Below are positions 8,767 through 57,011 of a stretch of DNA of 64,000 nt, piece after piece. The DNA is taken from positions 3,238,501 to 3,302,500 of the forward strand of contig NZ_CP034447.1 in NCBI RefSeq assembly GCF_003952485.1, given 5' to 3'. Each line of letters begins with the position of its first letter. Position 1 is the stretch's first letter. Both the position numbers and the translations under genes were made by a program. The notes beneath the pieces are model-generated. The model was given only the letters and a program-made list of their open reading frames with translations, had not been told where the DNA came from and searched no databases. The DNA comes from Mesorhizobium sp. M1E.F.Ca.ET.045.02.1.1. Lineage in GTDB: Bacteria > Pseudomonadota > Alphaproteobacteria > Rhizobiales > Rhizobiaceae.

Positions 8767-10072
8767 TGCTGTCGTTCCTTCCCGGTTGGCGGCCGCCGCC
8801 GGCACTGTCGCCGCCCGAATTCCCTGGCTGGAACGAAGGCTGGTCGCGGCCCGCCGACATCGGCGGCGTGCTGGTTGCATCGGTGCGGCCGGCTGAATGA
8901 ACTGCTATCGAGGGTTGCAGGATGGTAACATGATCGACCTCGAAACCGAGACCGCGCATCGACTTGACGATCGCGTCGCTGTCGGCGGTCAGGCGGCGGT
9001 ATGCCTCATGCGTCTGTGGCTTCATCTCAATCGAAAGCTGTTCTCCCGAGAGCCTCAGGCTGGCGGTCACCACGCCAAGCTCCGAAGGATGAAGCTCGAT
9101 CTTCAGGACGTGTGTCGGAACGGCAACAGAATTGGCCGTTTGAGCGGCGGCCGCGGCGCTTGAAAAGGTCTGCTGGACGCCGGTGTCCGAGGCGATCGCC
9201 TCGACCAGCGCCGATGCCGTCTGGCTGATGGTAGTTTGCGCCGGCGCCGGGAAGCTCTGCTCGCTGACGACATCCATGCGCCCGGCGGCGGATGGCTTGG
9301 CCTGGTTGAGCGATGCGATGGATTGCGCCGCTTGCGCGGTCTTCTGGGCGGCTGCCGGCCGCCAGCCTCGCGGCGCTGCGGCGTCGGTCTCGGTTCCAGT
9401 TGTTCCGGGCAGGACGATGTCGTCCTTGCGGACCAATGTGGCGGGGCCGGCGCTGGCTGGTTTCTGGCCGAAGGCGGGTTCGGGTTTGTCCGTCGCCATC
9501 GTGGCGCGAGCGGATCGCGGCAACGGCTCGGAGCTTTCGGTGGCGTCGGCCGATATGCGTTTGCCCTGACGGATCGCGAGCTGCGAAGGGGCGGATTGGC
9601 CGAGGGAGGATTGGATCCCAGCCTCTCCCTCGGCGGCCGATCCGCTGCGATCGGCATTTGTCGACGTTGCGAAATGGCGGATGTCGCCCAGCGCCATCAA
9701 CAAGGGCAGGCGATCCTCAAACGGAGCGGCATCCGACGATTGCGCCGCCGCACCGGCATCGTCCGCGGCCTTCATATGGTCGGCATCAGCTTTGTTCTTC
9801 GCGGCTTTTCCAGTCGCCGGCTTCTGCGCGGCAGTCCTGGTCTGTCCATCCTGGCCAGCCTGTGTCTTGGCCGGACCGGCGAGGGGACGCCGTGTCGGAT
9901 GGGCATTCGGGGAGACAGACTCCGCCGACTGCTTGCCCTGCAAGGCCGGCTTCTCGGCGCCATTCACCATCTCGCCGAAATTCGCGCCTTTTTCCTTCCC
10001 GTCGGCAGCGTGCTGCCGCGACTGGGCGTGGGCAGAGCCGAGTCCCGGCAAGGCCTGGCTGATGCTGGTCAT
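8696..10072 (-). CDS. fliK: Flagellar hook-length control protein FliK (MotD-type)
   Basis: The 458-residue protein has a long disordered Ala/Pro/Gln-rich N-terminal region (about 1-310). Its globular C-terminal region matches the FliK hook-length domain: KIELHPSELGVVTASLRLSG and LSIEMKPQTHEAYRRL, about residues 325-410. FliK measures hook length and switches export from hook to filament substrates. In Sinorhizobium the gene in this position was first called motD. Its start overlaps the motC stop (ATGA); its end runs 71 bp into the transglycosylase gene. Confidence 0.88.
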   Translation of the reverse strand: MTSISQALPGLGSAHAQSRQHAADGKEKGANFGEMVNGAEKPALQGKQSAESVSPNAHPTRRPLAGPAKTQAGQDGQTRTAAQKPATGKAAKNKADADHMKAADDAGAAAQSSDAAPFEDRLPLLMALGDIRHFATSTNADRSGSAAEGEAGIQSSLGQSAPSQLAIRQGKRISADATESSEPLPRSARATMATDKPEPAFGQKPASAGPATLVRKDDIVLPGTTGTETDAAAPRGWRPAAAQKTAQAAQSIASLNQAKPSAAGRMDVVSEQSFPAPAQTTISQTASALVEAIASDTGVQQTFSSAAAAAQTANSVAVPTHVLKIELHPSELGVVTASLRLSGEQLSIEMKPQTHEAYRRLTADSDAIVKSMRGLGFEVDHVTILQPSIAVHSAGRTDATSTPPMSAGRDQPSFQPGNSGGDSAGGGRQPGRNDSNGAQEIGRAASPLRERAGDDIYI

Positions 10073-11517
10073 TTGGGAGCGGCTCCGAGCAACTGGTCAA
10101 TTTGGTCGAGCTGACGGCGCGCGTTGAGCATCGCGGCGTCGGTGGGATCGTGCGGATCAAGATCCGCGACGGCCGCCGGCGCAGACGCAGGCAGCACGGC
10201 TGGCGTTTCGGGTGGTGCCGGAGCGGCGGCTAGCGCCGCGACCGTGGGCGGAGCCGTCGTTGGCAGGGTCGGCGGCGCGGGAGCCGCGGTCGGCGCGTCC
10301 GCCGCCGGCTTGGCCGCAGCCGCGACAGCCGGCTGCTCGGACATGGCGCCTTCCACCGGCGGCAAGGCTTCGGCGTCGGCCTTGCTCACAGACTCGGCTT
10401 CGGCGGCGGGTTTCGCCGCATTGATCCTTGCCGGATCCGCAGCCTCGATCTCGTCCTTGCCTGCCGCCGGCACAGGTGCGACGACCTCGCCTGCGACGGC
10501 TTGCGCGGCGTCGAGCAAGGCGCGGTCGCCTTCCGAAAGTTTGGCGCGATCGATCTTGCCGAGCCTGGCGCGCACGTCGTCGATCGTGGCCGACGTCACC
10601 GTGGAGAGGCTGGAGTAGAGCACGGCGCGTGGATCGTCCTGATTGCCGTTGCCGTTACGGCCTTGCTCGGCCCGCGCCGAGGCGAAAGCGGAGAGATCCG
10701 TCAGCCCGTCGATCGCGGCACGGCGGGCGATGCGCAGATAGATCACCTTCTCGCGCTCGGCATCCATCATCGACGTGATGTCGGCGAGCTTGTCCTGGCT
10801 GATCGACATGTGCAGTTGAATAACGCCGGAGACGAAGGAATCCGCGAACTGGCTGGCATAGGGGGAATAGAGATAGCCCGCGACATACTGCGTCGAGGCG
10901 AGCGCGAAGCGAGCGGCATCGCCTTGTGCCGCGGCGATGCCGACGGAACGGCGAAGGGCTGCTTCCTCGACCAGCGTGCCGGGGCTGAGCAGGCGGGCCT
11001 GGTCCAGCAAGATGAGCGCTGCGGCCGGTTCATCGGTCGCGAGCAGAGAACCCTTGACCAGCGCCAGGAAGGCGCCGAGGTCGGGAGGCACGCTCATCGG
11101 ATCGATCGGCTTCAGGATCTCGATCGCGGTGGCCGGCCGGCCGTTCAGGTAGGCGACGATCCCCTTGGCGATGGCGAGGCTTTGCGGGTCGGTCGTCGCG
11201 CGCGAAGCCGCGGCCTCGACCGTGACAGGGTTGCCGCCGCTCATGCCGTAGACGAGCAGTCCGCGGAAATTTTTCGGATCCTTGAAATCCTCGGCATCGG
11301 CGGCGCGAAGCCTGGCATCGGTCATTTCGAGCAGTTTGGCCTGCATCGGCAGCGCCGCATGGTCGCCGCCGGCGATGCGGTCCTGGATCAGCTGCAGCGA
11401 ACGCACCAGCTGATAAGGCTGCAAGCCGTCATCCTGGGCGAAAGCCGCGGCCGGCGATCCTGCGGCGGCGAGCAGCAGCAGCCCGACAGCGCGGCCGATG
11501 ACGGTCTTGCCTCTCAT
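10069..11517 (-). CDS. motC: Periplasmic motility protein MotC
   Basis: The 482-residue protein has a signal peptide (about 1-27, ending AAAFAQ) and starts its mature part with DDGLQPYQLVRSLQLIQDRI, typical of rhizobial MotC. MotC is a periplasmic protein that with MotB controls motor function, with MotE as its dedicated chaperone; motE lies at 19976. The C-terminal third (about 355-460) is Ala/Pro-rich and probably disordered. It overlaps motB and fliK by four bases each. Confidence 0.9.
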   Translation of the reverse strand: MRGKTVIGRAVGLLLLAAAGSPAAAFAQDDGLQPYQLVRSLQLIQDRIAGGDHAALPMQAKLLEMTDARLRAADAEDFKDPKNFRGLLVYGMSGGNPVTVEAAASRATTDPQSLAIAKGIVAYLNGRPATAIEILKPIDPMSVPPDLGAFLALVKGSLLATDEPAAALILLDQARLLSPGTLVEEAALRRSVGIAAAQGDAARFALASTQYVAGYLYSPYASQFADSFVSGVIQLHMSISQDKLADITSMMDAEREKVIYLRIARRAAIDGLTDLSAFASARAEQGRNGNGNQDDPRAVLYSSLSTVTSATIDDVRARLGKIDRAKLSEGDRALLDAAQAVAGEVVAPVPAAGKDEIEAADPARINAAKPAAEAESVSKADAEALPPVEGAMSEQPAVAAAAKPAADAPTAAPAPPTLPTTAPPTVAALAAAPAPPETPAVLPASAPAAVADLDPHDPTDAAMLNARRQLDQIDQLLGAAPK

Positions 11518-12944
11518 CCGCCTGTAGCCATCAGGATTTCGATGCGGCGGTTCGCGGCGGCCAGCGGATCGGACGGGATCCTGGGCTGGCGGTCGGCATA
11601 GCCGGCGACCTCGGTGATACGGCTTTCGTCGACGCCGCCTCGCACCAGCATGTAATAGGCGGAGTGGGCGCGGGCGGTGGACAGCCGCCAGTTGTCATAG
11701 GTGTCGCTGCGGAACGGCCGCGCGTCGGTATGGCCGCCGATGGTGATGGTGCCCTTCTTCTCGTTGATGATGTGCCCGATCTTCTCCATCGCCAGCACCA
11801 GCTCGCGGCGCGGCAAGGCCGAACCGATCTCGAACATGCCGAAGTCGAGCTGATCGGTGATCGAGATGACGACGCCCTTGTCGGTGGCCTCGACGGAGAC
11901 GCCCTCGGCCAGCTTTTCACCCGGCGCGAAGGCCTTGGCCAGCTCCTGCTTGATTTCGGCGGCGGCCTTGAGGGCGGTGCTGCTCGGGGCCTTTACGCCT
12001 TGGTCTGGTGTCTGCTCCGGCTCTGCCTTCGCCGTCTCCGCCTTCGCCGATCCAGCCTTCGCGGCTTCGGATTTGGCTTCATCTCCGGCTTTTTCGGCTT
12101 CCGCTTTTCCGCTTTCAGCCTTCTCGACCTTGATCTCCTGGCGCGCGGCTTTCCCGGCCTTCGCATCGGCCGATCCGGCAGCCATCTTGGTATCGGGTTT
12201 CTCGGGCGTTGCCATCGGTTCGAGTGGGGCTTCCAGGCGCGGCGGCGCCGGCGGAGCCGCCTTGACCTTCGGTACCTCGGTTTCGGCGACTTTTTCGCCG
12301 GGCTTGGCCGGATCGCCTTCGATCTTCTTGCGTTCCGCGCTGGCTTCGGCGCCAGGTGTCGCCACCTGCTGCGACCAGAAATCCGGCGCGAAAGGGTCGC
12401 GATAGGATTCGCCGCCGGAAGCGCCGGTCGCCGGACCGGCGTTCTGAACACCGCCTTCACCCTTGGCGCTGACATTCTGCATGACGCCGGTATCGGTGGC
12501 GATCTCGGCAAGCACGGCGTACGGGTCGGCAAACAGGTGCTCGTCGGAAAGGTCGGACTTCTGCGAGGCTTCCTTGGTCTGCCTGCGGTCGGAGGAGCCG
12601 GCGCCGCCCTTGCCGTTCTCGCCGGCCTTGCTGGCGCCATCCTGCGGGTTGTCGGCGGTGAGACCAACCTTGCTCGGGCCGTCGCCGAGATCCTCGAGAC
12701 CCTTGCGGCTGGAGTTGCGGTCGATCAGCTCGACCGGATTGAAGTAGCTGGCGACCGCCGCCTTGGTCTGCTCGTTGGCGGCGTTGATCAGCCACATGAC
12801 GAGAAAGAAGCACATCATCGCCGTCATGAAGTCGGCAAAGGCGATCTTCCAGACGCCGCCATGATGGTCGTCGTCATGACCGTCGTGGTTGCGCTTGACG
12901 ATGATGATCTCGTGCCTGGCCTCGCCGTGGTCGATGGCGCTCAT
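11514..12944 (-). CDS. motB: Flagellar stator protein MotB
   Basis: The 476-residue protein has one transmembrane helix (about 31-54: FADFMTAMMCFFLVMWLINA). It carries the proton-accepting Asp38 and a C-terminal OmpA-like peptidoglycan-binding domain (about 345-476, with GGHTDARPFRSDTYDNWRLS). Between them is an unusually long linker with an Ala/Lys/Glu/Pro-rich low-complexity tract (about 202-320). The start at 12944 overlaps the preceding stop (ATGA); a possible start ten codons upstream lies inside the neighbour. Its partner motA is on the opposite strand at 28393. Confidence 0.95.
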   Translation of the reverse strand: MSAIDHGEARHEIIIVKRNHDGHDDDHHGGVWKIAFADFMTAMMCFFLVMWLINAANEQTKAAVASYFNPVELIDRNSSRKGLEDLGDGPSKVGLTADNPQDGASKAGENGKGGAGSSDRRQTKEASQKSDLSDEHLFADPYAVLAEIATDTGVMQNVSAKGEGGVQNAGPATGASGGESYRDPFAPDFWSQQVATPGAEASAERKKIEGDPAKPGEKVAETEVPKVKAAPPAPPRLEAPLEPMATPEKPDTKMAAGSADAKAGKAARQEIKVEKAESGKAEAEKAGDEAKSEAAKAGSAKAETAKAEPEQTPDQGVKAPSSTALKAAAEIKQELAKAFAPGEKLAEGVSVEATDKGVVISITDQLDFGMFEIGSALPRRELVLAMEKIGHIINEKKGTITIGGHTDARPFRSDTYDNWRLSTARAHSAYYMLVRGGVDESRITEVAGYADRQPRIPSDPLAAANRRIEILMATGG

Positions 12945-13567
12945 GACAGGACCTCCGACAGGGAAGCCGACCATTCGGCGATACGCGTCTCGAACACCGT
13001 TTCATCGATGGTCACGGTCAGGTCGAAGCCCGGGGCTTCGGTGAAATCGAGATTGGCCGCGCGGTCCCCAAGTGCCGCCTTCAGCGGCTCGAACAGCGAC
13101 AGCGGCCCGCGCACGCCGATCCGCACGGCCTCGCTGTCGGCGACCGCGGCGCCGATGGTGCGGGTGAGGGCGTCGAGCGAACGCTTTTGCAGCTCTTCGC
13201 TGACGATGCCGCCCATGATGCGGGCGATGGTGGCGGCGGTGATCTCGGCAACACGCGCCTCCATGGCATCGATCCGCGTCGTGACCGCCGCGCCGAGATC
13301 GCCGCCGAAGCTTTCCAGGAACGCTTTCGCCGCATCGTCATTGGCCTGGCGCTCGGCCTCCAGCGCCGCCTGATGGGCGGCCGTGAGGCGGGCTTCGAGT
13401 GCTGCTTCCGCGTCGGCCACCGCCTCGGCGATCAAAGCGCCAATGTCGGCTTGCGGCGGGGATGCCTCCGGCTTGGGCTCGACGTTCTGCGCCGCCGGCG
13501 GCTGGCCGGTGCGCGGCGCGCGCGGGCCGAAATCGGGCAGGAGATCGAAAAGGGCTCCCGAAGCCAT
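12941..13567 (-). CDS. FliH-like flagellar ATPase regulator (divergent)
   Basis: The 208-residue protein has an Ala/Pro-rich N-terminus, a long Ala/Glu-rich helix (about 42-95, LIAEAVADAEAALEARLTAA) and a C-terminal alpha/beta part. This is the FliH layout, and FliH regulates the FliI ATPase. It lies three bases after fliF and overlaps motB, and no other fliH candidate is visible in the window. Homologues are often left as hypothetical proteins. The assignment rests on architecture and position, not on a strong motif. Confidence 0.65.
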   Translation of the reverse strand: MASGALFDLLPDFGPRAPRTGQPPAAQNVEPKPEASPPQADIGALIAEAVADAEAALEARLTAAHQAALEAERQANDDAAKAFLESFGGDLGAAVTTRIDAMEARVAEITAATIARIMGGIVSEELQKRSLDALTRTIGAAVADSEAVRIGVRGPLSLFEPLKAALGDRAANLDFTEAPGFDLTVTIDETVFETRIAEWSASLSEVLS

Positions 13568-13570
13568 GGC

Positions 13571-15229
13571 TTAAGCCGCCGCTTCCGGGGCGGCCGCCCA
13601 TTTGCGCAGGATCTGTGCGGTGCGCTCCTCGTTGAGGTCGACCATGCGCGCCAGCCGTTCCTGCGGCGCTGGCCTGATCTTCTGACGCAGGTCGTCGAGC
13701 GGGGTGGAGCCCGGGCGAGCGTCGGGCAAGGCGCCGACCGGCGTATCGGAAGCGATCGCAGCCACCGGCGCGTCGGGCGTCGGCAGCGAGCGCTGGACAT
13801 CGTCGAAGCTGGGGCCGGCGATGGCTGCGGGCTTCGCCGATGCCGTCAGCGCGGCGGCCATCGGCCGAAGGCCGAAGAAGGCGACAAGGAACACGACGAC
13901 GATGAAGGCGCCGGCGTTGATGAGCGTGCCGGTGTACGTGCCGATCGAGGCGAGGATGCCGGGCTGGTCGATCGGCTCGCCATCCAGTCCGTCGATGAAT
14001 TCCACCGCCGAGACGTCGATGATGTCGCCGCGCTTGTCGTCGAAGCCGGTGGCCGAGGCCACCATCTTCTGGATGTCCGCAACGCGCTTGGCGATCTGCT
14101 CGGGCGTGGCGTCCTTGCCGAGGATGGTCTTGAGCCGATCCTGGTTGACGACGACGGCGATCGACATCTTGGTCACCGAATAGCCGTTGGAGACGGTGGC
14201 GATCTTCTTGGAGTTGATCTCGTAGTTGGTGATCTCTTCCTTGCGGTCGTTCTGCGAGGAGGACTGCGGCCCCTCGGTGCTGGTCGTCTGGGTCTCGGGC
14301 AGGTTCTGCTCGACGCTGGTCGGGGTCGAGGCCTGCTTCTGGTTGCTGGCCTCGTTGGTGCGTACCGACTGCACCGATCGCTCAACGCGGGATTCAGGAT
14401 CGAAGATCGTCTCTTCGGTCTGGCGCGTGTCGGTGTTGACGTCGGCCTTGACGCTGGCGCGGAAATTGTCGGGGCCGAGATAGGGTGTCAGCGCGCGGCG
14501 GATGTTGTCGCCGATCTGCGCCTCGACCGTCTGCTCGACGCCGAGCGTGCGGGCAGCGCTGGTGTTGGAGGTGTCGTCGCCGGCGGCGAGCAGGTTGCCG
14601 TTGGAATCGAGCACGGTGACCTTGTCGGCCGACAAGCCGGGAACCGCCGCGGCGACCAGGTGGCGGATCGACTGCGCGCTCTTTTCGGCATCCATGCCGG
14701 CATAGCGGATGACCACCGAAGCCGAGGGCTGCTGCTCGTCGCGGCGGAAATTGGCGCGCTCGGACATGACGATGTGGACGCGCGCCGCCTTGACGCCGGC
14801 AATCGACTGGATGGTGCGCGCAATCTCGCCTTCGAGCGCGCGCACGCGGGTGATCTGCTGCATGAAGGACGTCAGGCCAAGCGAGCCGACATTGTCGAAC
14901 AATTCGTAGCCGGCGTTGGCGCTGGTCGGCAGGCCCTTCTCGGCAAGCAGCATGCGGGCGTGCGCGGTGGTGCCGGCCGGCACCAGCACCGACGTTCCGT
15001 CGGCGCCGACATCGAAGCCGATGCCGGCCTCGCCCAGCACCAGGCCGATCTGGTTCACGTCGGAGCGGTCGAGCCCGACATAAAGCGTCTCGTAGGCCGG
15101 ACGGTTGAGGTAGACCGAGGCGAGGCCGATGACCGCCATGACCAGCGCGGCGATGCCGCCCATGAGGGCGAGACGCCTGACGCCGAATCCCCGCAGATTC
15201 GCGATGAGGCTCTGGATCTGTTCCGGCAC
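13571..15229 (-). CDS. fliF: Flagellar MS-ring protein FliF
   Basis: The 552-residue protein has two transmembrane helices (about 20-42 and 430-452) flanking a periplasmic YscJ/FliF ring domain. Visible blocks include YETLYVGLDRSDVNQI, SFMQQITRVRALEGEIARTI and VKAARVHIVMSERANFRRD. The C-terminal tail (DLNEERTAQILRKWAA) is the FliG-binding segment. FliF forms the inner-membrane base of the basal body. It starts the minus-strand operon that runs to the transglycosylase gene. Confidence 0.95.
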   Translation of the reverse strand: MPEQIQSLIANLRGFGVRRLALMGGIAALVMAVIGLASVYLNRPAYETLYVGLDRSDVNQIGLVLGEAGIGFDVGADGTSVLVPAGTTAHARMLLAEKGLPTSANAGYELFDNVGSLGLTSFMQQITRVRALEGEIARTIQSIAGVKAARVHIVMSERANFRRDEQQPSASVVIRYAGMDAEKSAQSIRHLVAAAVPGLSADKVTVLDSNGNLLAAGDDTSNTSAARTLGVEQTVEAQIGDNIRRALTPYLGPDNFRASVKADVNTDTRQTEETIFDPESRVERSVQSVRTNEASNQKQASTPTSVEQNLPETQTTSTEGPQSSSQNDRKEEITNYEINSKKIATVSNGYSVTKMSIAVVVNQDRLKTILGKDATPEQIAKRVADIQKMVASATGFDDKRGDIIDVSAVEFIDGLDGEPIDQPGILASIGTYTGTLINAGAFIVVVFLVAFFGLRPMAAALTASAKPAAIAGPSFDDVQRSLPTPDAPVAAIASDTPVGALPDARPGSTPLDDLRQKIRPAPQERLARMVDLNEERTAQILRKWAAAPEAAA

Positions 15230-50252: not shown

Positions 50253-50357
50253 GCCGGCAATGCTGCTTAAATTAGGTGCAGCGCAACATCTCTGCTTGGA
50301 GAATGCCCAGGACTTGTGTCAGGGTTCGGCGATTGAAACGCCGTTCCCCGGGGCACC

Positions 50358-53300
50358 ATGGCAATACTGGCAGCCGTCCACCACCTGACCCATTACAAAT
50401 ACGATCGGCCGGTGGTGCTCGGCCCCCAGGTGATCAGGCTGCAGCCGGCGCCGCATTCCCGCACCAAGGTGCTCAGCCACTCTTTGAAGGTCGAGCCGAA
50501 GAACCACTTCGTCAACCTGCAGCAGGACCCCTACGGCAACTTCCTCGCCCGCTTCGTCTTTCCGGAGCCGGTGAACGAGCTGAAGATCGAAGTCGACCTC
50601 GTCGCCGACATGACGGTCTACAACCCGTTCGATTTCTTCGTCGAACCCTCGGCCGAAACCTTTCCCTTCGACTATCCGGAAGAGATCAGCGAAGACCTTG
50701 CCATCTACCGGACGCCGGAGCCGGTGGGACCGCTCTTGTCGAAGTTCCTGGAGAGCATCGACCGCAGGCCGACAAACACCGTCAATTTCCTCGTCGACCT
50801 CAATGCGCGGCTGCAGCGCGAGATCGCCTATATCGTGCGCATGGAGACCGGCGTCTACTCGCCGGAGGAGACACTGGCCGCGGGCAAAGGCTCGTGCCGG
50901 GATTCGAGTTGGCTGCTGGTGCAGATCCTGCGCAACCTCGGCGTCGCCGCGCGCTTCGTCTCCGGTTACCTGATCCAGCTCAAGCCCGATCTCGTTTCGC
51001 TCGACGGACCGCCCGGAACCTCGGTCGACTTCACCGACCTGCATGCTTGGTGCGAGGTCTATATTCCGGGCGCCGGCTGGATCGGCTTCGATCCGACCTC
51101 CGGCCTGCTTACCGGCGAAAGCCATGTGCCGCTTGCCGCTACGCCGCATTTCCGCAACGCCGCGCCGATCTCCGGCATGGCGAGCTTCGCCAATGTCGAT
51201 TTCAACTTCGACATGCGCGTCGACCGCATTGCCGAGCATCCGCGCATCACCAAGCCGTTCTCCGACGAAAGCTGGGAAGCGCTCGATGCGCTGGGCAACA
51301 AGGTCGATGCCATTTTGCACGAGCAGGACGTACGGCTCACCATGGGCGGCGAGCCGACCTTCGTGTCGATCGACGATTTCGAGTCCGCCGAATGGAACAC
51401 GGCCGCCGTCGGTCCGACCAAGCGCGACAAGGCGGATCAGCTCATCCGACGACTGCGCGAGCGCTTCGCGCCGGGCGGCTTCCTGCATTACGGCCAGGGC
51501 AAATGGTATCCGGGCGAGAGCTTGCCGCGCTGGACCTTTTCGCTCTACTGGCGCGCCGATGGCGAGCCGGTGTGGCGCGACCCCTCGCTGATCGCGCAGG
51601 AAAAGAGCACGGTCTCTGTCGGGCCTGAGCAGGCCGAAAGCTTGCTCACGGCGATCGCCGGCGAACTCGGCCTCGACAAGGCGATGGTCAGCGAGGCCTA
51701 TGAGGATCCGGCCGAATGGCTGCTCAAGGAAGGCAAGCTGCCGGACAATGTCGATCCTTCCAATTCGAAGTTGGAGGATCCGGAAGAGCGCAGCCGCATG
51801 GCGCGCGTCTTCGAGCGCGGCCTGACCAAGCCGTCGGGCTATGTTCTGCCGGTGCAGCGTTGGAACAGCCAGGCCGCGGGGCAGCGCTGGCGCTCGGAGA
51901 AATGGAAGACACGGCGCGGGCGGCTGTTCCTTGTCCCTGGCGACTCTCCGGTCGGCTATCGTCTGCCGCTCGGCACGCTGCCCTACGTGCCGCCGGCGCA
52001 GTTTCCTTACATCGTGCCGGTCGACCCCTCTGTGCCGCGCGGCGCCTTGCCTGCGCGCGAGGCGATCTTGCCGGAAACCGCTCCGGTTGAGCCTGAAGGC
52101 GCCGACGAAATGGCCCGTCGTCAGCAGGCGGTATCCTTCACGGCAGCGACTGGCCAGCAGGACCGCGTCGAGCAGGAGATCACAGAGATCGGCGGCGCGG
52201 TGCGAACGGCCCTCACCGTCGAGCCGCGGGACGGCCGGCTCTGCGTGTTCATGCCGCCGGTCGAGGCGCTGGAGGATTATCTTGAACTGGTGGCCGCGGC
52301 CGAGAATGCGGCGAAGGCGGTTGGGCTGCCGGTGCATATCGAAGGCTACGGCCCGCCCCACGATCCGCGCCTCAACGTCATCCGCGTTGCGCCGGACCCA
52401 GGCGTCATAGAGGTCAACATCCATCCGGCCGCCAACTGGCAGGAATGCGTTGCCACGACCACGGCGATCTACGAGGAAGCCCGGCAGTCGCGGCTTGGGA
52501 CCGACAAGTTCATGATCGACGGCCGCCATACCGGCACCGGCGGCGGCAACCATGTTGTGGTCGGCGGCGCGACGCCCAACGACAGCCCGTTCCTGCGCCG
52601 GCCGGACCTGTTGAAGAGCCTGGTGCTGCAATGGCAGCGGCATCCGTCGCTGTCCTATCTGTTTTCCGGCCTGTTCATCGGCCCGACCAGCCAGGCGCCG
52701 CGCTTCGACGAGGCGCGGCACGATTCGCTCTATGAGCTCGAGATCGCGCTGGCGCAGGTGCCGCATCCGGACAAGGGAGAGGCGCCCTTGCCGTGGCTGG
52801 TCGACCGGCTGTTCCGCAATCTGCTCACCGATGTCACGGGCAACACGCATCGCTCGGAAATCTGCATCGACAAGCTGTTCTCGCCGGATGGCCCGACCGG
52901 CCGGCTCGGGCTGGTCGAGTTCCGCGGCTTCGAGATGCCGCCCAATGCGCGCATGTCGCTTGCCCAGCAGTTGCTGGTCCGCGCCATCATCGCCCGCGCC
53001 TGGAAGAATCCGTTCGACGGCCGCTTCGCGCGCTGGGGCACCTCGCTGCATGACCGGTTCATGCTGCCGCATTATGTCTGGGCGGATTTCCTCGATGTTC
53101 TTGAAGACTTGAAGCTCAACGGCTTCGACTTTCGCCCCGAATGGTTCGCCGCGCAGCTCGAATTCCGCTTTCCGTTCTGCGGCGAAGTGCAGCATGCCGG
53201 CATCAAGCTGGAGCTGAGGCAGGCGCTGGAGCCCTGGCACGTGATGGGCGAGCAGGGCGCGATCGGTGGCACCGTCCGCTTCGTCGACTCGTCCGTCGAG

Positions 53301-53717
53301 CGGCTGCAGGTGAGGACCGAAGGACTGAACCCTGAGCGCCATGCCATCGTCTGCAACGGCCGCATCGTGCCGATGAAGGTCACCGACAGCAGGGAGATCG
53401 CGGTGGCGGGTGTGCGCTTCAAGGCCTGGCAGCCGGCCTCCGGCCTGCATCCGGCCTTGCCGGTCAACACGCCGCTGATCTTCGACATCTATGATCGCTG
53501 GTCGGGCCGCTCGATCGGCGGCTGCGTCTACCATGTCGCGCATCCGGGCGGCCGCAACTACGACACCTTTCCGGTCAACGGCAACGAGGCCGAGGCGCGG
53601 CGGCTTGCCCGCTTCGAGCCGCGCGGCCACACACCGGGCAGCTACGTGCTCGAAGCCGAAGAAGCCTCTGAAGACTTCCCCATGACCCTTGACCTCAGGC
53701 GGCCGGCGAGACTCTGA
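50358..53717 (+). CDS. Transglutaminase-DUF2126 putative amidoligase fusion
   Basis: This is a 1119-residue two-part protein. Residues 1-95 are the bacterial transglutaminase N-terminal beta domain and about 150-260 the papain-like core with a complete triad: Cys180 in GKGSCRDSS, His229 in DLHAWCEVY, Asp245 in GFDPTSG. Residues of about 310-1115 match DUF2126, a predicted ATP-dependent amidoligase module ([60 protein letters not shown]). No signal peptide, so cytoplasmic. The next gene starts six bases on. Transglutaminase-fold and ligase in one chain suggest forming and trimming of a peptide-like bond; the substrate is unknown. Confidence 0.93.
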
Positions 53718-53723
53718 TCCACC

Positions 53724-56135
53724 ATGGCCAAGGGGAATCAGAAACGGGCGGGCGGCAGGCCGCGGGCGCAGGGCCTGCTGGAGCGCTACCGTCCGATCGA
53801 CGGTGTCGTCGACGAGATGGTCGACGCATCAGGCAATCCGCGCCCGGCCTGGCGTTCCTTCATCGAAGCGCTCGATGAACTGGGGGCTGAGACGCTCGGA
53901 CAGCGATTTGCCCGCGCCGACCAGTATCTGCGCGACGCGGGCGTCTACTACCGCGTCTACGACAAGGCCGGCGCCAACGAACGCGAATGGCCGCTGGCGC
54001 ATGTCCCTCTGCTAATCGACGAGAAGGAATGGGCCGAAATCAGCGCCGGGCTCGTCCAGCGCGCCGACCTGTTCGAGGCGATCCTGACCGACGTCTACGG
54101 TCCGAACCGGCTGGTCGAGAAGGGCATCCTGCCGGCCGGGTTGATCGCGGCCAGCCCCGAATATCTGCGCCCGGTCGTCGGCGTCCGGCCGGCCAGCGGC
54201 CATTTCCTGCATATGGTCGCTTTCGAGCTTGGCCGCGGACCGGACGGCCGCTGGTGGGTGCTGGGCGACCGCACCCAGGCGCCGTCGGGCGCCGGCTTCG
54301 CGCTGGAGAACCGCGTCGCCACCACGCGTGCGCTGTCCGACATCTATGGCGAAATGCATGTGCACCGTCTTGCCGGCTTCTTCCGCCGCTTCCGCGACGC
54401 TCTGAACGGCATGGCAAGGGAGTCCGGCGGACGCGTCGCCATCCTGACGCCAGGACCGCTCAACGAGACCTATTACGAGCACGCCTATATCGCGCGCTAT
54501 CTCGGCATCATGCTGCTCGAGGGCGAGGACCTGACCGTCTCCGGCGGCCGCCTGATGGTTCGCACCGTTTCGGGCCTGATGCCGATCGGCGTTTTGTGGC
54601 GGCGGCTCGATGCGGCCTTCGCCGATCCGCTCGAGCTCAACCCGGACTCGCAGATCGGCACGCCGGGCCTGGTCGAGGCGATCCGCCGCGGCACGGTCTC
54701 GGCCGTCAACGCGCTGGGTTCGGGCCTGATGGAAACGCGGGCGTTGCTTTCCTTCCTGCCCAGGATCGCCCAGGAACTGCGTGGCGAGGATCTCTCCCTG
54801 CCGAGCATCGCCACGTGGTGGTGCGGGCAGCAGACCGAACGCGACCATGTGCTTGCCAACATCGACCGCATGGTGATTGGCCCGGCGCTGTCGACGCGGC
54901 TCGCCTTTGAAGACGATGGCGCGACGCGGCTGGGCTTGGCGCTTTCGTCAGGGGAGCGGGCGGAACTGATCGCGCGGATCGAGACGGACGGTGCCGGCTT
55001 TGTCGGCCAGGAAGCCGTTACGCTTTCGACGACGCCGGTCTTTGCCGGCAGCCGGCTGGAGCCGCGGCCCGCCAGCCTGCGGGTCTATCTGGCGCGCACC
55101 CAAGAAGGCTGGACCGTCATGCCTGGAGGCTTTGCGCGCGTCGGCTTCTCGCTCGACCCGACGGCAATCGCCATGCAGCGCGGTGGCCAGGCCGCCGATG
55201 TCTGGGTGGTCAGCGACAGGCCGGTCGAACGCGAGACGCTGCTGCCGCAGGAGACCGACGGTTTCACCCGGACCATGCCCGGCAGCCTACCAAGCCGCGC
55301 GGCGGAGAACCTGACCTGGCTCGGCCGCTATATCGAGCGCTCGGAAGACACGGTGCGCGTGCTGCGCGCCTATCATGTCAGGCTGGCGGAGACGTCCGAT
55401 CCCGATATGCCGCTGCTCGCCGATATCAGGGACTATCTCGAGCCGTTCGGCATCGAGGTCGAATCGGCGATCCCGCTTGGCCTGATCGGCACGTTGGACA
55501 GCGCCGTCTACAGCGCCGGACAGATCCGCGACCGCTTCTCGCCGGACGGCTGGCTGGCGCTGAAGGATCTGTCGAAGACGATCCATAGATTCGCCGGAAC
55601 GGTGGCGCCTGGCGACGACGCGACGCGCGCGATGACCGTCATGCTGCGCAAGCTTGCGGGCTTCTCGGGCCTGCTGCACGAGAACATGTACCGGTTCACC
55701 GGCTGGCGATTCCTGGAGATCGGCCGCCGGCTGGAGCGCGGCATCCAGATCGCCCGGACGCTCGCCCGACTGACTGGAAACGGCGCGCCGGACGGCGCGC
55801 TCGACATGATGCTGGAGATCGGCGACAGCGTGATGACCCACCGCCGGCAATATCCGGTGCAGGCCGGCCGGCGCACGGTGATCGACCTCCTGGCGCTCGA
55901 TCCGCTCAATCCGCGCTCCATCCTGTTCCAGCTCGAGCGGCTGAAGGCCGAGATCGGCATGCTGCCTTCGGTCGGCGGCGAGGGGCATATGTCGCCCGCG
56001 GCGAAGGAAATCCTACAGCTCAACACGGCGACCGCTGTGATGGAACCGTCGGACATGACCGCCAGGGTGCTAGACGAGCTCGCCAACCAGATCGGTGATC
56101 TCTACAACAGCCTCGCCAAGGCCTATTTCGGTTAG
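53724..56135 (+). CDS. Circularly permuted ATP-grasp and alpha-E domain fusion
   Basis: The 803-residue protein joins two families that are often separate genes. About 80-470 is the circularly permuted type 2 ATP-grasp (LLIDEKEWAEISAGLVQRAD, GPLNETYYEHAYIARYLGIM, IATWWCGQQTERDHVLANID). About 522-800 is an alpha-E domain (SRAAENLTWLGRYIERSEDT, ENMYRFTGWRFLEIGRRLER). ATP-grasp ligases join a carboxylate to an amine at the cost of ATP; alpha-E is a helical partner of unknown mechanism. The stop and the next ATG are directly adjacent. Confidence 0.93.
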   Translation: MAKGNQKRAGGRPRAQGLLERYRPIDGVVDEMVDASGNPRPAWRSFIEALDELGAETLGQRFARADQYLRDAGVYYRVYDKAGANEREWPLAHVPLLIDEKEWAEISAGLVQRADLFEAILTDVYGPNRLVEKGILPAGLIAASPEYLRPVVGVRPASGHFLHMVAFELGRGPDGRWWVLGDRTQAPSGAGFALENRVATTRALSDIYGEMHVHRLAGFFRRFRDALNGMARESGGRVAILTPGPLNETYYEHAYIARYLGIMLLEGEDLTVSGGRLMVRTVSGLMPIGVLWRRLDAAFADPLELNPDSQIGTPGLVEAIRRGTVSAVNALGSGLMETRALLSFLPRIAQELRGEDLSLPSIATWWCGQQTERDHVLANIDRMVIGPALSTRLAFEDDGATRLGLALSSGERAELIARIETDGAGFVGQEAVTLSTTPVFAGSRLEPRPASLRVYLARTQEGWTVMPGGFARVGFSLDPTAIAMQRGGQAADVWVVSDRPVERETLLPQETDGFTRTMPGSLPSRAAENLTWLGRYIERSEDTVRVLRAYHVRLAETSDPDMPLLADIRDYLEPFGIEVESAIPLGLIGTLDSAVYSAGQIRDRFSPDGWLALKDLSKTIHRFAGTVAPGDDATRAMTVMLRKLAGFSGLLHENMYRFTGWRFLEIGRRLERGIQIARTLARLTGNGAPDGALDMMLEIGDSVMTHRRQYPVQAGRRTVIDLLALDPLNPRSILFQLERLKAEIGMLPSVGGEGHMSPAAKEILQLNTATAVMEPSDMTARVLDELANQIGDLYNSLAKAYFG

Positions 56136-57011
56136 ATGCTTTACGACATCAGGCTTCATCTGCATTACGAATACGCCTCCGCCGCCGGCGGCGGCCGGCA
56201 CCAGGTGCGCGTCTTGCCGCAGACGATCGCCGGCGTGCAGCGGGTGATCGCCGCGTCATTGTCTTTTCAGCCGATGCCGTCCGAACGGGCGGATTTTTCC
56301 GATTTCTTCGGCAACAACGTCACCTCGATCGCCTTTCGCGAGGCGCATGAGGAACTCGACATCAGGATGAGCGCGCGGGTGTCGGTCTCGCGGCCGGAAC
56401 CAGGGCTGGACGTTTCGCCCGACATCCACGGTTTGAGGGCGGAACTGGATGCCGTGCGCTCGCTGTCCCCTGCCGCGCCGCATCATTTCCTCGCCGCCAG
56501 CGACTATGCCGGCCTCGATGCGGCGATCACCGCCTATGCGCGGGAGAGTCTCTCTGGCTCCACGGTCGGCACCGCGGTCGATCTCTGCAACCGCATCCAT
56601 CGCGATTTCACCTATGACGGCAAGGCGACCACCGTGCAGACCCGGGGCAGCGACGCTTTCGCGCTCAAACGCGGGGTGTGCCAGGACTTTTCGCACATCA
56701 TGATTGCCGGCCTGCGCGGCCTGGGCATTCCCGCCGGCTATGTCAGCGGCTTCCTGCGCACCATTCCGCCGAAAGGAAAACCGAGGCTCGAGGGCGCCGA
56801 CGCCATGCATGCCTGGGTAAAGGTCTGGTGCGGCCGCGATGCCGGCTGGCAGGAATTCGATCCAACCAACGGCATGCGGGCGAGCAACGACCATATCACG
56901 GTCGGGCACGGCCGCGACTATTCCGACGTGGCGCCGATCGTCGGCGTCTTGAAGACCACCGGCGGCCAGGTCGGCGAGCAGGCGGTCGACGTCATTCCGG
57001 TCGCCGCCTGA
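56136..57011 (+). CDS. Second transglutaminase-like protease of the amidoligase operon
   Basis: The 291-residue protein has an N-terminal beta domain (1-90) and a transglutaminase core with triad Cys182 (GVCQDFSH), His225 (AMHAWVKVW) and Asp242 (EFDPTNG). It has no signal peptide. It starts at the base after the preceding stop, so it is tightly co-translated. It could act as a peptidase or transpeptidase on the product of the two ligase modules. Confidence 0.93.
   Translation: MLYDIRLHLHYEYASAAGGGRHQVRVLPQTIAGVQRVIAASLSFQPMPSERADFSDFFGNNVTSIAFREAHEELDIRMSARVSVSRPEPGLDVSPDIHGLRAELDAVRSLSPAAPHHFLAASDYAGLDAAITAYARESLSGSTVGTAVDLCNRIHRDFTYDGKATTVQTRGSDAFALKRGVCQDFSHIMIAGLRGLGIPAGYVSGFLRTIPPKGKPRLEGADAMHAWVKVWCGRDAGWQEFDPTNGMRASNDHITVGHGRDYSDVAPIVGVLKTTGGQVGEQAVDVIPVAA

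Follow-up and report, generated by a model that had tools for sequence, protein, structure and literature searches.

The window analysed here is a stretch of 64,000 nucleotides, positions 3238501-3302500 of the one-contig genome (7.35 Mb) of Mesorhizobium sp. M1E.F.Ca.ET.045.02.1.1. On the forward strand of this chromosome, three genes follow one another with gaps of 6 and 0 base pairs (bp). Their coordinates and spacing in the list of open reading frames bear out an original prediction, made from the sequence alone, that they form an operon, and Pfam domain calls match the five modules that it had recognized. Gene 1 joins a transglutaminase (TG) to DUF2126, gene 2 joins a circularly permuted ATP-grasp domain to Alpha-E, and gene 3 is a second TG. 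The Pfam matches are far above chance: Bact_transglu_N, Transglut_core, and DUF2126 (1349.9 bits) in gene 1; CP_ATPgrasp_2 (457 bits), overlapping CP_ATPgrasp_1, and Alpha-E (185 bits) in gene 2; and Bact_transglu_N and Transglut_core in gene 3. None of the three proteins matches an NCBIfam model, and PADLOC gives 0 matches to defence models for five proteins.

Such a set of modules was reportedly described by Iyer, Abhiman, Burroughs, and Aravind in 2009 as a predicted amidoligase or peptide-tagging system with ATP-grasp, a glutamine synthetase (GS)-like ligase, Alpha-E, TG, and an Ntn peptidase. The first four occur together in the operon, in agreement with that definition. The original prediction had assigned the operon to this system. 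The assignment fits the module content. Two active ligases are unlikely, because the fused ATP-grasp has lost its catalytic residues.

Gene 2 has the permuted ATP-grasp fold. In ATP-grasp enzymes, a Glu-x-Asn (ExN) motif provides metal ligands, and a conserved lysine and a glycine-rich loop serve ATP. In gene 2, G181 and R183 replace the Glu and Asn of active relatives, G386 replaces the lysine, and the glycine-rich loop is gone. The site residues were counted, in 3n6x numbering, in 113 fused copies and 77 unfused paralogues. Glu161 is kept in 2 of the fused copies, Asn163 in 0, Lys368 in 7, and the GGxG loop in 1, whereas each of the four is kept in 77/77 unfused ATP-grasps. No fused copy has the complete set (0/113 versus 77/77). 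A tree of ATP-grasps separates fused and unfused copies exactly, with support of 1.0, and a second aligner, hhalign, pairs the sites of the two groups in the same way. A fused copy from Actinomycetota (n=1) is degenerate in the same way.

An example of an active fold relative is Cp1B, a pseudodipeptide ligase of E-64 biosynthesis (9cjn), which needs residue types that are absent from gene 2. In PMC12568646, replacing R139, D141, E163, or N165 by alanine abolishes or weakens its activity. Judged by motif and shared fold, these residues would correspond to the sites lost in gene 2.

Both ligase modules had originally looked intact. This stands for DUF2126, as far as its fold and invariant residues show, but on alignment the catalytic residues of the ATP-grasp are missing. 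Since the fused site is lost, the operon likely contains one ligase, not two. A pathway in which DUF2126 and the fused ATP-grasp are both active, working in sequence to make a small peptide or a protein tag, is therefore very improbable, as the full residue set occurs in none of the fused copies and in all of the unfused paralogues.

The loss of the site is not a sign of a decaying gene. The ratio of nonsynonymous to synonymous substitution (dN/dS) was estimated by the Nei-Gojobori method against four hand-picked relatives, of which the fourth has dS >1 and gives a rough ratio. For the pseudo-ATP-grasp half of gene 2 the values are 0.085, 0.135, 0.100, and 0.235; for gene 1 they are 0.084, 0.079, 0.073, and 0.136. 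The residues that replace the old site are themselves conserved (Asp in 106, Arg in 95, Gln in 93, Pro in 107, and Gly in 109 of 109 fused copies). Low dN/dS and conserved replacements together indicate a pseudoenzyme, not a broken gene. That selection has retained the degenerate ligase domain suggests that it plays a supporting part and does not make peptide bonds.

One explanation for this conservation is that the fused domain has been repurposed as an enzyme or sensor, with the old ATP site binding another ligand through the motif D-R-x-Q-A-P-S-G. The conserved replacements, and their recurrence in the Actinomycetota copy, speak for such a site. On the other hand, conservation may merely maintain the fold or an interface, no ligand or activity is known for the fused domain, and the motif deviates in two loci, L201 and L133. 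A repurposed site of this kind is thus rather improbable. In L201 (genome G126), an intact unfused ATP-grasp and Alpha-E are followed by a degenerate fused ATP-grasp-Alpha-E protein and a TG, with no DUF2126; the pseudo-site of this fused protein is unlike the DRTQAPSG type.

Gene 1 likely supplies the operon's ATP-driven ligase, in fusion with a TG-type cysteine enzyme. DUF2126 has the GS fold, and residues E332, E387, E662, E685, N687, H732, E854, and R856 are invariant in 121/121 copies, the window included. Judged by fold and invariant residues, the module looks intact. Its invariant acidic, His, and Arg residues were paired with GS motifs by eye, and a comparison of the DUF2126 profile with E. 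coli GlnA gave no match. DUF2126 differs from the glutamine synthetase / glutamate-cysteine ligase / Dop superfamily in its place behind a TG domain and in its large insertions.

Both TG cores have a full Cys-His-Asp triad, as had been claimed. In gene 1, C180, H229, and D245 are each kept in 121/121 copies; in gene 3, Cys and His are kept in 107/107 copies and Asp in 106/107 (window included in both counts).

An analogy for gene 1 is glutathionylspermidine synthetase/amidase (Gss), in which a ligase is joined to a cysteine amidase. In the E. coli enzyme (2io8, 2ioa) the ATP-grasp is the ligase, whereas in the window operon the likely ligase is the GS-fold domain and the ATP-grasp is probably dead. 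When profiles were compared, the unfused ATP-grasps gave no match to the E. coli enzyme.

At least 8000 protein matches to gene 1 were found. The best 120 of them are 92-98% identical, and those that are named come from Mesorhizobium, except for one metagenome-assembled genome labelled alphaproteobacterium. Some close homologues (P0004, P0037, and others) carry the public name "IMP dehydrogenase", which looks like a naming error. A 1103-residue open frame lies antisense to gene 1 and is likely a by-product of high GC content, not a gene. A sequence search with the Alpha-E domain of gene 2 matched no solved structure.

Table 1. Features of the operon, in window coordinates, and of the Anbu operon L033 of the same genome, in coordinates of its own stretch.
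Feature	Position	Strand	Basis
Gene 1, TG_N + TG core + DUF2126, 1119 aa	50358..53717	+	Pfam; >=8000 homologues scored
Transglutaminase-like region of gene 1, residues 6-246, triad C180/H229/D245	50373..51095	+	Pfam
DUF2126, residues 278-1114, glutamine-synthetase fold	51189..53699	+	
Gene 2 (803 aa), fusion of a circularly permuted ATP-grasp with Alpha-E	53724..56135	+	Pfam; model pLDDT 87.2
Pseudo-ATP-grasp domain, residues 95-473	54006..55142	+	
Degenerate ExN site, residues 181-189, GDRTQAPSG (active copies EDNxRxPSG)	54264..54290	+	
Residues 386-400, ATP lysine position now G386, Gly-rich loop lost	54879..54923	+	
Alpha-E helical domain, residues 522-802	55287..56129	+	Pfam
Gene 3 (291 aa), transglutaminase-like protein on its own, with complete triad	56136..57011	+	Pfam; sequence match to 3isr, E 7.1e-8
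Open frame antisense to gene 1, likely no gene	50319-53630	-	
L033, ATP-grasp	9169-10638		
L033, Alpha-E	11120-12061		
L033, TG	12083-12877		
L033, Anbu	12911-13642		

The original prediction had seen no exporter or ribosomal peptide precursor nearby, although no search was aimed at these. The three flanking genes that were scanned encode a LysR regulator, an acyl-CoA dehydrogenase, and a topoisomerase IB (Pfam). Gene 1 starts 105 bp past the end of the acyl-CoA dehydrogenase gene. Pfam finds no further domain inside the three open reading frames, and no Anbu model matches the window between 46000 and 62000.

The distribution of the layout was read from 120 DUF2126 loci besides the window. Of these, 40 come from 200 Pseudomonadota genomes drawn evenly across the phylum, and 80 are named loci from a genome scan; the latter, being the top 80 among at least 593 matches, are biased to close relatives. 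DUF2126 is present in 63 of the 200 genomes and CP_ATPgrasp in 116. TG and DUF2126 are fused in 120/120 loci, the scan patterns lying within these two domains, and ATP-grasp and Alpha-E are fused in 108/120, 107 of them with a stand-alone TG in the stretch as well. The layout is thus standard, and the two fusions, which the original prediction had highlighted, do not stand out as an unusual pair.

Among the loci that depart from this layout are L117 and L118, which carry an unfused pair in place of the fused copy, and L147 (G191), whose fused copy lies on another contig. In L117-L119, which belong to family f21 and come from genomes of 2.3-2.9 Mb, DUF2126 adjoins Anbu and the fused protein is missing from the stretch; two of the three also have unfused ATP-grasp and Alpha-E. 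The IncFII plasmid p1_120063 of Enterobacter roggenkampii (L214) holds a five-gene cluster whose product names in the record indicate an unfused ATP-grasp, Alpha-E, a TG-family protein as long as a DUF2126 protein, the fused protein, and a TG. Because it is plasmid-borne and an IS26-family element lies ~5 kb beyond, this cluster may travel. ATP-grasp/Alpha-E matches also occur in four phage-labelled records (MT835738, MT835541, CAKLQH020000004, and CAKLQF020000002), which are possibly misfiled bacterial DNA.

An intact, unfused ATP-grasp is found ~2 Mb away in the same genome, in a four-gene Anbu operon (Table 1). Its Anbu gene, labelled Proteasome by Pfam with a weak score (32 bits), is located at C1:5303410-5304138. 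Anbu operons, such as that of Yersinia bercovieri, have paralogous ATP-grasp, Alpha-E, and TG families in common with the window operon. They differ in that their ATP-grasp is unfused and intact and DUF2126 is absent, whereas the window operon lacks Anbu and has lost its ATP-grasp site. PMC6376114 reports that the unfused ATP-grasp of an Anbu operon frees phosphate from ATP.

The two sets are sometimes neighbours. An unfused ATP-grasp shares the stretch with the DUF2126 set in 24/120 loci, and Anbu does so in 10/120. The former is seen in 22 of the 30 loci L114-L143, which belong to classes other than that of the window, and in 1 of the 80 named, mostly alphaproteobacterial, loci. In Burkholderia arboris, unfused ATP-grasp, Alpha-E, TG, TG-DUF2126, fused ATP-grasp-Alpha-E, and TG form one co-directional row.

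In the phylum sample, all 63 genomes with DUF2126 have an unfused ATP-grasp that is intact at the residues checked; among the matches listed, CP_ATPgrasp is found at E 0.001 in 53 of the 137 genomes without DUF2126. Two or more CP_ATPgrasp matches are listed for 59/63 genomes with DUF2126 and for 5/137 without it. No p value is given for this co-occurrence, as the genomes are not independent. In Mesorhizobium, 56 of 61 genomes have the fused copy, and 54 of the 56 also have an unfused copy in one frame. Anbu occurs in 35/63 genomes with DUF2126 and 34/137 others, and is therefore optional.

A further recurring gene encodes Peptidase_Mx, a zinc-ribbon metallopeptidase (PF15887 + PF10005). It adjoins the DUF2126 set in 16/120 loci (for instance, L080:8724-9800) and is present in 19/63 genomes with DUF2126 versus 10/137 others. 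This recurrence fits a cycle in which amides are built and broken. A "putative zinc-binding metallopeptidase" lies within a Caballeronia cluster, and Peptidase_Mx adjoins Anbu in L203 and L204. The genome of the window has one copy, away from the operon (G000:C1:2026623-2027663).

Evidence on regulation comes from related clusters. In B. cenocepacia, I35_5080-83 encode DUF404/407, DUF403, a TG, and a large TG protein. When nitrogen is limiting, NtrC and sigma54 activate these genes, which change by -6.0 to -9.4 fold in an ntrC mutant (PMC5491218). The B. arboris row corresponds to these genes, and from its gene order the large TG protein would be TG-DUF2126. In P. putida, nitrogen limitation raises PP_2686-2688 by 11.0- to 37.3-fold, in the wild type and likewise in a relA/spoT mutant and an rpoN mutant (PMC7801951); PP_2685 is the Anbu-like gene of this set. 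Anbu itself is reported to be raised in nitrogen-limited P. putida but to stay the same under various other conditions (PMC5666114). For the window, no promoter signal backs nitrogen control.

Nitrogen limitation also suits a different explanation, a degradation or salvage machine in which the TG cores, with Anbu and Peptidase_Mx, break amides to release nitrogen, while the part of the ligases is limited to priming or tagging substrates. The induction of both related clusters and the metallopeptidase beside 16 DUF2126 loci agree with it, and it is favoured by the Anbu authors (PMC5666114). Neither Anbu nor Peptidase_Mx is obligatory, however, as their counts among genomes with DUF2126 show; DUF2126 has the fold of a synthetase; and Anbu is described as inactive on standard peptides. 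Degradation as the main role is accordingly unlikely, with perhaps a slightly better chance than a repurposed site.

The favoured explanation places the operon in the widespread Anbu/Alpha-E/GS-like amidoligase system as its DUF2126 arm, with a GS-fold ligase, TG-type cysteine enzymes, and a pseudo-ATP-grasp-Alpha-E partner. This explanation is probable, with ample room for doubt. The DUF2126 half of gene 1 is predicted to activate a carboxylate with ATP and form an amide. The TG half would be a cysteine enzyme that cuts or transfers amides, so that gene 1 may be a make-and-break or make-and-transfer enzyme, and gene 3 would be a second TG-type cysteine enzyme acting on amides. Gene 2 would be a conserved pseudo-ligase that has lost Mg-ATP chemistry and, with Alpha-E, serves as a binding or assembly subunit. 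Its probable partners are the unfused Alpha-E and the intact, unfused ATP-grasp, which the genome encodes at another site. Nitrogen shortage is the condition under which the system is probably deployed. The reaction direction, the substrate, and a complex of the pseudo-ATP-grasp with active ATP-grasps are putative parts of this scheme.

Several observations weigh against this explanation. The model of gene 1 is of medium confidence (pLDDT 70.5). In 12/120 loci, DUF2126 has no fused copy in the stretch, although several of these stretches are incomplete. An intact partner is not a strict necessity: the complete Mesorhizobium genome G202 has the fused gene and DUF2126 with no match to an unfused ATP-grasp, and in another Mesorhizobium, G225, the unfused ATP-grasp is split over two frames. 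Conversely, the fused gene adjoins a TG without DUF2126 in G194, G197, G024, G126, and S. meliloti Ak57 (L220), and is also kept without DUF2126 in G204. Because the fused gene persists where TG-DUF2126 is missing (G194, G197, and G204) or is not next to it (L220), the pseudo-ligase may act apart from DUF2126. The rise of PP_2686-2688 in the rpoN mutant argues against a need for sigma54 in P. putida, and sigma54-like promoters show no excess upstream in 119 loci. In PMC5666114, operon expression is unaltered under various other conditions, and a role in peptide synthesis is rated less likely. In PMC6376114, Y. bercovieri Anbu shows no specific interaction with its operon partners, the fused protein and DUF2126 not being among those tested, and the ATP-grasp is not stimulated by Anbu, glutamine, or glutamate. 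Finally, literature searches on DUF2126 and the domain names found no biochemistry on DUF2126 or the fused protein. In a third Mesorhizobium, G231, DUF2126 is split over two frames; G202, G225, and G231 represent loss of or damage to the system in some strains, or sequence error.

The same searches found no functional study, no experiment on peptide tagging by such systems, and no account of the dead fused copy, although Iyer et al. may have noted the latter. They agree with the earlier statement that no product is known, none having been characterized. PMC3597751 and PMC11597610 make passing mention of the domains.

As a member of the predicted system the operon is common; its variant feature is the conserved pseudo-ligase. 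Anbu, Alpha-E, and DUF2126 genes occur in many bacteria, and no described product was found for them. The probable death of one supposed ligase directs ligation assays to DUF2126 and the unfused ATP-grasp, and binding tests to the fused protein. A more specific proposal, also rather doubtful, is that fused ATP-grasp-Alpha-E proteins form an ancient class of pseudoenzymes. Here the dead site would have been rebuilt as a specific pocket (D-R-x-Q-A-P-S-G), and the protein would work, much like an adaptor in a bacterial conjugation system, as a receptor for substrate or as an on/off switch, passing a tag or amine between an intact ATP-grasp and the GS-fold ligase. If the pseudo-ligase is an adaptor, it would represent a new type of control over amide conjugation in bacteria.

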